DNA of 38,161 bases from Planctomycetota bacterium (GTDB lineage: Bacteria > Planctomycetota > Phycisphaerae > UBA1845). The notes under the pieces are model-generated. The model saw nothing but the letters and a program-made list of their open reading frames with translations. It had not been told where the DNA came from and did not search any database. The stretch is taken from the NCBI GenBank assembly GCA_024280855.1, contig JAJRPG010000014.1:1-38161 (forward strand), in the 5' to 3' direction. Position numbers and translations under genes: made by a program. Below are positions 28,071-36,675 of the stretch, piece by piece (position 1 is the first letter of the stretch; each line of letters begins with the position of its first letter).

Positions 28071-29108
28071 TCACAAGCACAAAGCGTGCGCGTTTTGCAG
28101 GGCACTCAGATTCATCGCCCCTCGCTCCAGCAAACTGCGCAGCCACATGACCCGGCGGTAACGATCAGACCGCCATTCGGCGCTAGTCACGCCCGCCCCT
28201 TGCAGCGCAGCAGCTAACTGTCTTATGCCCTCTGCTAATTTCCAATTGAACCGAAACCCCGGCAAAAGATGGGCGAGCTGCTCACCGCATACATGGTAGG
28301 ACTTCGTATCCGCGACATCGAACGCACCCGTCCACTGACTATCAGGAATCGCCTCTGTCACGGCTTCCGCGACTTGGGCGATTCGATAATTTTCATGACG
28401 CTGCACGATATTAATAGCCCGATCGTGAATCCGTTGTGGCGATAACGACAGCAAAGCTGAGAAGGTTCGGGCTACGTCTTCCACATGAATAAAAGGCCGC
28501 CAAGCCAGTCCAGCGGTTTTCATGGCGATGCGACCCGCCGTCGTGGCAGCCCCGACAAAATCGTTGACCACTGTATCAAGACGAAGTTTCGGCGAGACGC
28601 CATAAACCGTACCCAACCTCAAATATACTGGAGAAAAACCATCTCCAGCTAACCTCGACAATTCCTGCTCGCACAAAATCTTGGACTTGTCATAATTAGA
28701 TAACGGACACACCGGGCTATTTTCAGTCAATAACTCTTGAGCGCCTTTGCCATACACACTGCAACTTGAAGCGAAGAAAAACCGCCCCACCCCAGCCGCC
28801 TTCGCCATTTGAGCGACGCGCATCGTGCCAGCGAAATTAATATCTTCAGTAAGCTGCGCACTAAGATCACCAGAGGCGTCGTCTGCAATACCTGCAAGAT
28901 GAATGACAACATCCACTCCGCTAAAGTGATGCGCCTCCACGACGCGAATATCTATAGATAAGGAAGTACCAGGCTCACGCACACGACCGAACGCACAGTC
29001 GCTATATAAATCTGCGTCCAGGCCGATGACCTCAATGCCGCGATAGAGCAGCACTTGCGTCAGAACAGAACCAATATACCCGCGATGACCTGTGATTAAG
29101 ACTTTCAC
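28071..29108 (-). CDS. NAD-dependent nucleotide-sugar epimerase/dehydratase
   Basis: 345 residues from GTG 29108, chosen because AGAGGA lies 6 nt upstream and the protein then begins MKVLITGHRGYIGS; an ATG at 29123 or 29153 would add 5 or 15 residues. This is an extended short-chain dehydrogenase: the GHRGYIGS glycine motif binds NAD, followed by HLAGIADDAS, SSCSVYG and the catalytic YDKSK. It converts a nucleotide sugar (UDP-glucose or GDP-mannose type) to an epimer or keto-sugar and could feed the DegT aminotransferase. First gene of the minus-strand unit, divergent from the transporter gene. Confidence 0.85.
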   Translation of the reverse strand: MKVLITGHRGYIGSVLTQVLLYRGIEVIGLDADLYSDCAFGRVREPGTSLSIDIRVVEAHHFSGVDVVIHLAGIADDASGDLSAQLTEDINFAGTMRVAQMAKAAGVGRFFFASSCSVYGKGAQELLTENSPVCPLSNYDKSKILCEQELSRLAGDGFSPVYLRLGTVYGVSPKLRLDTVVNDFVGAATTAGRIAMKTAGLAWRPFIHVEDVARTFSALLSLSPQRIHDRAINIVQRHENYRIAQVAEAVTEAIPDSQWTGAFDVADTKSYHVCGEQLAHLLPGFRFNWKLAEGIRQLAAALQGAGVTSAEWRSDRYRRVMWLRSLLERGAMNLSALQNAHALCL

Positions 29109-29268
29109 TCGTGGTCCTCTCATGTAGTTAAGACAGCTAACAAATCGTGACACCGCGCGACTTGCTCCGTCATACCTATGCTAAGATATCGGATGCCCGT
29201 TCGGTTTGGCTTGATAGCGAAAACACTTCACAATCAATTCACAAAATGGCTGAAACCTGCGCATGATG

Positions 29269-29423
29269 CAAGACCGATTATGCGGGATGCACACAACGAG
29301 TCGGAGTCAGAGCCGCACGGCGCAAGCCTGCGGGCAAGTCTTGTCAAGGATTGGCGTAGTGAAGACGTGCCACCAGGCTCGCGCCAGGTGCTCTGACAGG
29401 ACTCGCTGACAATTCTGTCTTGC
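29269..29423 (+). other. Rod-like 155-nt palindrome, candidate structured RNA
   Basis: Seven perfect helices nest in order: GCAAGAC 29269/GTCTTGC 29417; CGAGTC 29297/GACTCG 29400; GTCAGAGC 29306/GCTCTGAC 29390; GGCGC 29319/GCGCC 29381; GCCTG 29326/CAGGC 29374; GGCA 29333/TGCC 29368; GTCTT 29338/AAGAC 29362. That gives 40 base pairs around a 19-nt loop, with one large asymmetric bubble (29276-29296 against 29406-29416). It sits in the 384-nt gap between the divergent epimerase and the transporter gene, where no protein-coding gene is convincing. It could be a small RNA, a transporter leader or a mobile palindrome. The strand is unknown; plus is used because a transporter follows. Confidence 0.55.
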
Positions 29424-29492
29424 ACCCCCTTCGATATAACTCGCGCGTGTTAAGTCGCCAAACAAAGACTTTATCAGTAGTATAAAGACGCT

Positions 29493-30680
29493 TTGACAAC
29501 AACTAGCAACCAATCTGTGAATTCTCAACCGTTACCCGAAAAAGATTTTCGTTTCAGCCTAAAAGAATTTGCAGGATCATTAGGCGACCTTGGAACCTTC
29601 ATTCCTTTGTTGGTCGGCATGGTCAGAAATTGCGGTTTGCAACTTTGCCCTGTCCTGCTGCTATCCGGCATAGCCAACATTCTCACGGGATTTCTTTTTC
29701 GCATTCCCATGCCCATCCAACCGATGAAAGCCATCGCCGCCGTAGCCATCGCCGAAGGATTAACCGAGTCACAAATTCTTTCGGCTGGCATACTCACCGC
29801 GGGGGCAGTTCTCTTTTTCGGCATCAGCGGACTAATAGGTTGGCTAAACCGAACCATTCCCAAAAGCGTCGTACGTGGTTTGCAACTAGCACTAGGCCTC
29901 AAGCTTTTCATCGCGGGCATGAAAATGATTGCAGACACGCACGCATGGGTCGGATGGGACAGCGCGATCATCGCGGCTATTTGCGGCGTCGTCATATTAA
30001 CAGGAAAGCCATCGTCACGAATTCCGCGCGTGTTGGCGGTCTTTGCCTTCGGCCTATGTCTGCTGCTTTTTTCAAACCCGCAGCTACTGACATTTCACCC
30101 AATCGGTTTTTCGTGGCATTGGCCTGACTTATCTCATAAAAGTGATTGGCTAAAAGGACTATGGGCCGGCGCGCTGCCACAAATTCCTCTGACCACTCTC
30201 AACTCTGTCATCTCCGTCTGCGCATTGTCCACAGACCTCTTCCCGCATAAACCTGCACATCCCAAACGCGTCGCTATTTCCGTAGGCTTATTGAATTTAT
30301 TGACATGCCCCTTTGGCGGCATGCCTATTTGCCACGGAGCCGGTGGGTTAGCCGCTCAATATCGCTTCGGTGCGCGAAGTGGTGGAAGTATCATCATGCT
30401 CGGCGTCATCAAAGTTCTATTGGTCCTCTTATTCGGCGGCTCATTATTAGCCTGGCTATTGCATTTTCCGTCATCAATCCTTGGCGTGATGTTGATGTTT
30501 TCAGGCGTGGAGTTAGCTAAGGTTTGCCGGGATCAACGAAAGAAAGTAGAAATCGTCGTAATGGTCATAACGGCCGGTGCGTGTCTAATTCTAAACACCG
30601 CCGCAGGGTTCGCCATTGGTTTTTTGTTCGCATGGCTACTTATATCGAACAAGATATTGCCTCATAAACAATCTGGCTAA
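29493..30680 (+). CDS. MOT1-type sulfate/molybdate transporter
   Basis: 395 residues from TTG 29493 (a GTG at 29517 is an alternative; no ribosome site is clear). A hydrophobic protein with about ten membrane spans. FAGSLGDLGTFIPLL and RIPMPIQPMKAIAAVAIAEG match the two conserved segments of MOT1 family transporters, distant relatives of SulP. FGGMPICHGAGGLAAQYRFGARSGG matches the second repeat. The family imports molybdate, sulfate or similar oxyanions; specificity cannot be fixed. No molybdenum cofactor genes are adjacent. Confidence 0.8.
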   Translation: MTTTSNQSVNSQPLPEKDFRFSLKEFAGSLGDLGTFIPLLVGMVRNCGLQLCPVLLLSGIANILTGFLFRIPMPIQPMKAIAAVAIAEGLTESQILSAGILTAGAVLFFGISGLIGWLNRTIPKSVVRGLQLALGLKLFIAGMKMIADTHAWVGWDSAIIAAICGVVILTGKPSSRIPRVLAVFAFGLCLLLFSNPQLLTFHPIGFSWHWPDLSHKSDWLKGLWAGALPQIPLTTLNSVISVCALSTDLFPHKPAHPKRVAISVGLLNLLTCPFGGMPICHGAGGLAAQYRFGARSGGSIIMLGVIKVLLVLLFGGSLLAWLLHFPSSILGVMLMFSGVELAKVCRDQRKKVEIVVMVITAGACLILNTAAGFAIGFLFAWLLISNKILPHKQSG

Positions 30681-36602: not shown

Positions 36603-36675
36603 GCCCCCATCGTCTAGTGGCCTAGGATATCAGGTTCTCATCCTGGAGACAGGGGTTCGACTCCCCTTGGGGGTG
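36603..36675 (+). tRNA. tRNA-Glu (anticodon CTC)
   Basis: A full cloverleaf is visible. Acceptor GCCCCCA pairs with TGGGGGT, leaving a G-U pair at the end, as in many chloroplast-type tRNA-Glu. The D-arm includes CGTCTAGTGGCCTAGGA. The anticodon stem TCAGG/CCTGG closes the loop TTCTCAT with anticodon CTC. The T-arm is AGGGG-TTCGACT-CCCCT. The discriminator base is G36675, and CCA is not encoded. CTC reads GAG. Confidence 0.93.

Follow-up and report, generated by a model that had tools for sequence, protein, structure and literature searches.

A palindrome upstream of a MOT1-type transporter gene in a planctomycete is very probably a mobile element with a REPIN nested in a MITE-like shell

The stretch of DNA analysed here (the window, 38,161 nucleotides) comes from contig C38 of the 4.56-Mb draft genome of a Planctomycetota bacterium (G000, 112 contigs), which we compared with two congeneric genomes (G001 and G002). 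The gap between an epimerase gene and a MOT1 transporter gene in this window is occupied by a long palindrome (Table 1). The called MOT1 start lies about 66 nt past the element, and the true start of the epimerase gene is, judging from its sequence, probably near 29120. Between 29080 and 29560 we found no terminator-like sites and one promoter-like match. The sole Rfam match at gathering score in the window was a tRNA gene at 36603-36675 (+ strand).

A first-pass annotation had described a rod-like palindrome beyond chance expectation, with 40 bp in seven nested perfect helices and one asymmetric bubble (21 nt against 11 nt). Folding of 29240-29440 bore this out, as the predicted structures reached -81.9 kcal/mol on the + strand (z -4.13) and -90.2 kcal/mol on the - strand (z -5.48), and 0 of 200 dinucleotide shuffles were as stable on either strand. 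A fold without G-U pairs contained the seven helices (those of at least 4 bp; 42 bp, 4-8 bp per helix), a few additional pairings of 1-3 bp, and the bubble, which measured 22 nt against 11 nt between helices 1 and 2. The ends of the element as defined by its dispersed copies lay 4-5 bases further out on each side than the 29269-29423 initially annotated.

Table 1. Coordinates of the element, its parts and the neighbouring genes in the window.
Feature	Position	Strand	Description	Basis
Upstream neighbour	28074..29153	-	NAD-dependent epimerase/dehydratase, Pfam PF01370	syntenic in G001 and G002
Left target-site duplication position	29255..29263	+	ACCTGCGCA; 3/9 match right flank	
Whole element	29264..29427		TIR-bounded, about 164 bp, MITE-like shell enclosing REPIN	alignment of 15 dispersed copies (11 with both ends) and flank test
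Left TIR	29264..29277	+	TGATGCAAGACCGA; 3 mismatches to 11-copy consensus GGGTGCAAGACAGA	
Left outer arm	29278..29306	+	consensus ..GGCGGGATGGGCACACCGAGCCGGGG; longer bubble side	fold, copy alignment
Inner REPIN (REP doublet)	29307..29396	+	also found solo elsewhere in genome	repeat matches, copy comparison
REP unit A	29307..29336	+	TCAGAG head and hairpin CCGCAcGGC-GCAA-GCCTGCGG	
Variable spacer	29337..29367	+	separates the two REPs, tail-to-tail layout	
REP unit B (read on -)	29368..29396	-	TCAGAG head and hairpin CACCtGGC-GCGA-GCCtGGTG	
Right outer arm	29397..29413	+	CAGGACTCGCTGACAAT; shorter bubble side	fold, copy alignment
Right TIR	29414..29427	-	exact consensus GGGTGCAAGACAGA	
Right target-site duplication position	29428..29436	+	CCTTCGATA	
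Downstream neighbour	29493..30680	+	molybdate transporter MFS_MOT1, Pfam PF16983	syntenic in G001 and G002
Helix 1	29267-29274/29417-29424		8 bp	G-U-free fold
Helix 2	29297-29302/29400-29405		6 bp	G-U-free fold
Helix 3	29306-29313/29390-29397		8 bp	G-U-free fold
Helix 4	29319-29323/29381-29385		5 bp	G-U-free fold
Helix 5	29325-29330/29374-29379		6 bp	G-U-free fold
Helix 6	29333-29336/29368-29371		4 bp	G-U-free fold
Helix 7	29338-29342/29362-29366		5 bp	G-U-free fold

Sequences related to the palindrome were dispersed through the genome. A BLAST search of the organism's own genome with a 281-bp query gave at least 44 matches, the window copy included; 40 of 93 first-look candidates were scored in this search, and the BLAST copy counts are lower bounds. 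Among the matches listed, seven besides the window copy were 85-88% identical to the query, six of them spanning most of the element, and many matches spanned only about 90 bp in its middle (29307-29396). The copies with outer arms lost alignment at one pair of points and the solo copies at an inner pair, indicating that the element consists of two nested units. A recount by plain scan yielded 42 copies from 37 sources, which are part of the total: 21 solo copies of the inner unit, 15 with outer sequence and 6 without a recognisable second unit. By approximate ORF calls (at least 90 aa), 39 of the 42 lay outside genes and 3 inside.

Among 40 related genomes, seven (the present one included) contained a match to the 164-bp consensus, in a search that scored the best 21 of 98 candidates in the own genome; beyond the genus the matches were short and confined to four genomes (E 1e-6 to 1e-3). 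Among the GTDB genomes scanned, a set that may not include the organism's own record, an exact 24-mer of the repeat had 16 matching stretches, all confined to a single MAG (Planctomycetota bacterium Dive96_bin2.90, JAJRWX). The 24-mer had no match in IMG/VR, and plasmid and phage records gave no match at E 1e-5. G002 contained relatives of the outer arms with an altered tip (for example GGTCYGTGACAGTATCGGCG), and at L091, L093, L096 and L099 of that genome the shell has relatives whose terminal repeat differs at its tip.

The epimerase and MOT1 genes were also adjacent in G001 and G002, with identities of 86% and 76% for the epimerase and 83% and 74% for MOT1, respectively. The same conserved anchors spanned 265 bp in G000, 93 bp in G001 and 96 bp in G002, and the element was absent from both congeners; the difference of 169-172 bp approximates the 164-bp element plus a short duplication. 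Both flanks aligned well in G001, and the left flank near the insertion was poorly conserved in G002. Because the gap is free of the element in both congeners, this comparison, which covers one locus, points to a lineage-specific insertion. The MOT1-proximal sequence downstream of the insertion was conserved in all three genomes, suggesting that the control region of MOT1 is probably independent of the element.

These observations bear on the possibility that the palindrome is a functional structured RNA or regulator. Its very stable fold, which is seen on both strands, and its position shortly before the called MOT1 start would suit such a role, and the first-pass annotation had proposed a 6S-like rod, a new small RNA or an oxyanion-responsive leader of MOT1. 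The leader was rejected on account of the orthologous gap, where the congeners keep the gene pair and the MOT1-proximal sequence without the element. As for 6S RNA, the covariance model RF00013 had no match in the whole genome, which is weak evidence because this model gave a match in no more than 5 of its 14 control genomes. No Rfam family matched the palindrome at gathering score, and at E values up to 10 the interval 29150-29500 gave two miRNA-model matches only (E 0.19 and 2.6). The small RNA likewise drew no support from covariation: the RNAalifold consensus of 15 copies placed its 24 pairs in the inner unit and none in the outer arms, with a covariation term of about zero and a compensatory change in 0 of the 24 pairs, a null result of little bearing on RNA function in general because the copies are similar. 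Given also the many dispersed copies in unrelated contexts and the fact that both congeners lack the element in the corresponding gap, we consider any of these RNA readings highly improbable, and we infer that the element has no cellular function at the epimerase/MOT1 locus. Another initial suggestion, that of a non-autonomous mobile palindrome, is supported by the dispersed copies and the empty orthologous sites, as well as by the terminal inverted repeats (TIRs) and the 9-bp duplications across copies that are described below.

The inner unit has the structure of a REPIN. REP unit A (TCAGAGCCGCACGGCGCAAGCCTGCGG) and, on the opposite strand, unit B (TCAGAGCACCTGGCGCGAGCCTGGTGG) are related hairpins in inverted orientation, each with a four-base loop of GNRA type whose third base is variable among the REPs. 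A pattern made from unit A, allowing at most 3 mismatches, occurred 82 times in G000, 88 times in G002 and 5 times in G001, whereas its reversed control occurred in none of the three genomes. Doublets made up 36 of the 42 copies examined, and the window copy folds as one hairpin. The heads face outward and the spacers differ between copies, which fits the tail-to-tail REP dimers in the account given by Di Nocera et al. (PMC3733652). The TCAGAG head was conserved about as well as the stem in the REPs of G000 and G002, and this conserved head is neither of the tags, GTAG or CGTC, of the two described REP super-families. In the literature searched, no title concerned a TCAGAG-headed REP or the REPs of this genus. 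REP clusters of three or more units, resembling BIME arrays, were seen in G002 (L090:1-1240 and L102:1170-1560).

The outer unit is bounded by a 14-bp TIR, the consensus of which is the same at both ends (GGGTGCAAGACAGA; 11 copies). A 13-base TIR pattern with at most 2 mismatches matched 87 times, against 43 for its reversed control, and ten inward-facing pairs of 150-169 bp, end to end, were the nested elements themselves. Target-site duplications were evaluated in the 11 copies that have both TIRs; the other four of the 15 copies with outer sequence (C86, C57, C26 and C4b) have no left end. When flank lengths of 6-15 were scanned, identity peaked at a length of 11 bases, counted outward from GGTGC, where it reached 0.66 (mismatched flanks, 0.26); at the other lengths it was 0.23-0.35, the next highest being 0.35 at 6. 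In the 9-bp frame outside GGGTGC, which was set after this length scan, 72 of 99 positions matched, against a permutation mean of 30.7, and 0 of 200,000 permutations scored as high. The duplication was perfect in three copies and weak in two (5/9 in L009 and 2/9 in L011), and that of the window copy is not recognisable (3/9), having decayed or been lost. In the solo REPINs (n = 21), all lengths between 2 and 13 were examined and none showed a duplication. As the outer shell is a mobile unit with duplications of its own, the REPIN sits inside a second mobile unit.

Known IS200/IS605 elements are described as having neither TIRs nor larger duplications (PMC2817692), and the shell, which has both, therefore points to a different enzyme, most likely of DDE type; it is the length of the duplication that suggests a DDE parent. 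No autonomous transposon with GGGTGCAAGACAGA TIRs was recognised in the draft genomes G000, G001 and G002, and 0 of their 10 DDE_Tnp_1 loci were bounded by these TIRs; at one of them (L128) a weak TIR pair starts inside the transposase match. Inverted ends of other kinds were looked for at 9 of the 10 loci (L120-L128). Inspection by eye of the listed ORFs revealed no transposase at six loci around unpaired TIR matches with 1 mismatch (L054, L055, L056, L057, L065 and L066). Allowing 3 mismatches produced odd TIR pairs at L006/L013/L060 (a second right partner, 179 bp), L014, L019, L044, L057, L067/L068, L072/L128, L077 and L103, and the ORFs of L077 included no transposase by eye.

The failure to find a DDE parent in the three congeneric genomes would also be expected if the outer arms were an extended, REP-linked palindrome that is itself spread by a RAYT, with the 9-bp repeats arising by a route other than that of a DDE enzyme. 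REP dimers within longer palindromes are known from A. variabilis and H. neapolitanus, as described in PMC3733652, and among the matches listed (21 candidates scored per genome) the outer arms always accompanied REP sequence, save for one TIR self-match. Such spread is nevertheless difficult to reconcile with what is described of IS200/IS605 elements, and the fixed-length duplication tracks the copies with outer TIRs and not the solo REPINs. We regard this explanation as unlikely, and retain the view of the arms and TIRs as the shell of a separate mobile unit.

The nested and the solo copies also differed in where they lie. Solo REPINs were at a median distance of 7 bp from the nearest gene end, and 13 of 21 were within 30 bp of the 3' end of a gene; of the 15 copies that have outer sequence, 1 was so placed (Fisher p = 0.0013, with crude ORF calls; the 6 copies without a recognisable second unit were left out of the test). 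The contrast was weaker when we asked whether the nearest gene end was a 3' end (16 of 21 solo copies and 6 of 15 with outer sequence; p = 0.041). Positions downstream of genes are the usual location of REPs, according to PMC3733652. That the nested copies are placed differently would follow if a different enzyme had put them there; selection is a possible alternative cause.

This difference in placement argues against there being one mobile family instead of two, in which the solo REPINs would be truncated copies of the outer MITE. In favour of truncation, nested and solo copies agree well in REP units A and B, and the small copies of QMITE2 were read in this way by their authors, in the account of PMC5896051. 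The solo copies, however, stop at the TCAGAG heads and not at random points, have many different spacers, lack duplications, and are the commoner form (21, against 15 with outer sequence, among the 42 copies examined). Furthermore, the same REPs flank two RAYT-type genes of G002, at loci where the TIR scan showed no TIR pair. Truncation thus seems to us improbable as the origin of the solo form, which we interpret as a REPIN family in its own right.

The association with RAYT-type genes was found in G002, where two of the seven Y1_Tnp matches were flanked by TCAGAG REPs (in G001, 0 of 3). One gene (G002:C15:358-918) has REP doublets on both sides and the other (G002:C3:32618-33235) has a REPIN on either side, the two REPINs being nearly identical and in the same orientation; both genes match Y1_Tnp, and the REPs counted there are a lower bound since the scan can skip weaker copies. 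No TIR pair was detected at either locus in the TIR scan. The C15 and C3 proteins are 22% identical. An H-x-H pair and a downstream tyrosine, which we take to be the HUH motif and the catalytic tyrosine, are invariant across the five proteins aligned. Relatives of the C3 protein (G001:C100, 59% identical; G002:C30, 59%; G001:C19, 48%) adjoin GTAG-headed palindromes, the arrangement given as the classical RAYT signature in PMC2817692 and PMC3733652.

In the organism's own genome (a 112-contig draft), we found no close intact match to the C15 or C3 protein and RAYT fragments only, such as C18:3091-3240 (64% identity over 50 aa), and the Y1 genes at C35 and C5 carry other repeats. At C35 (L078:2680-3470) a Y1 transposase gene with a 248-aa open frame has inverted AGGGGACAGTCACCTATT repeats at its ends and is of TIRtron type. 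Another REP-like family (GGCATGCCCAAGCC..GGCGCGGGCATG) forms inverted doublets by Y1 transposase fragments at C5 (L079:2660-3540) and C18 (L153:1648-1766), and two doublets of a GTAG-headed repeat (GTAGGTCATGCTATTGCATGACGAA) lie near a 50-aa RAYT fragment at C18 (L153:947-1295). The RAYTs at L152, L154 and L155 (G001 and G002), 48-59% identical to the TCAGAG-flanked one, accompany GTAG repeats with different stem sequences; together with the latter they form a natural series for the study of transposase-repeat coevolution.

In the interpretation that we hold to be very probably correct, the palindrome arose by insertion of a mobile element that is non-autonomous and built of two nested layers, a REPIN in a MITE-like shell. 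The inner layer would be a REPIN of two inverted TCAGAG/GNRA-hairpin REP units joined tail to tail; a RAYT (Y1 tyrosine transposase) presumably copies it in the form of a folded, single-stranded hairpin. The outer layer would be a MITE-like shell of 14-bp TIRs and arms, with 9-bp duplications such as a DDE-type transposase produces. The REPIN may have been captured inside this second mobile unit and carried with the shell into the promoter gap between the epimerase and MOT1 genes. It is from these features that we infer which enzyme moves which layer. The first-pass idea of a folded single-stranded recombination site was half right in spirit, in that RAYTs are thought to handle REPs in the form of single-stranded hairpins.

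With moderate confidence we further propose that the element is dually mobile. A REPIN built for a RAYT (single-stranded DNA, Y1 chemistry, no duplication, sites beside gene 3' ends) would have been captured in the shell of an unrelated transposase (9-bp duplication, sites elsewhere between genes), providing two transposition routes with different landing sites for a REP whose TCAGAG head falls outside the GTAG and CGTC super-families. The palindrome is struck from the list of candidate RNA genes, and it illustrates that a nested mobile palindrome can mimic a designed RNA rod in a single sequence. A further REP family, whose head belongs to neither of the two described super-families, comes to light together with the RAYT-type genes that accompany it. 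That a single genome contains both nested and solo copies, which differ in duplication and in landing site, is relevant to the question of whether the small, REP-like form of a REP-bearing MITE derives from it by truncation or is an independent REPIN population.

Several known systems share parts of this organisation. REPINs with RAYTs, as characterised in PMC3116915 and PMC2817692, are likewise inverted REP doublets that form a hairpin, are extragenic, reach high copy number, lie beside RAYT genes and, like the solo copies here, lack a target duplication; the present family differs from that description in having no GTAG or GTGG head and in that some copies lie within a shell with TIRs and target-site duplications. 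The A. variabilis and H. neapolitanus REP dimers within longer palindromes, which according to PMC3733652 were not found without REPs, resemble the present element in that a REP dimer is embedded in a longer palindrome. Target-site duplications do not figure in that source's account of them, whereas here such duplications mark the outer palindrome as mobile. The same source describes TIRtrons (TIRYT), in which TIRs enclose a Y1 transposase gene. One such element, with GGGGACAG ends, is present at C35 of the own genome, and the TIRs of TIRtrons, that one included, as far as they are given there, do not resemble those of the present element.

The closest precedent, by analogy of architecture, is QMITE2 of Coxiella burnetii. 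As presented in PMC5896051 and PMC10969869, full-size QMITE2 copies measure 150-190 bp, have TIRs and direct repeats that are mostly 9 bp (table rows), contain a GTAG REP, and number 10 and 12 in two strains; the small copies are more numerous, have neither TIRs nor direct repeats, and are described as REPs in essence. The QMITE2 sites are mainly intergenic and 3' regions (PMC5896051). The two families are thus alike, so far as QMITE2 is described in these sources, in being REP-bearing MITEs with TIRs, 9-bp repeats and small copies without TIRs. They differ in that the present REP head is TCAGAG and not GTAG, in that the insert is an inverted REP doublet, and in that the small copies here have RAYT-type genes associated with them in a congener, for which reason they look like an independent REPIN family. 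Taken as an analogy, the present family shows the QMITE2 architecture again in a different phylum, where the REP head differs and the small form is linked to RAYT-type genes.
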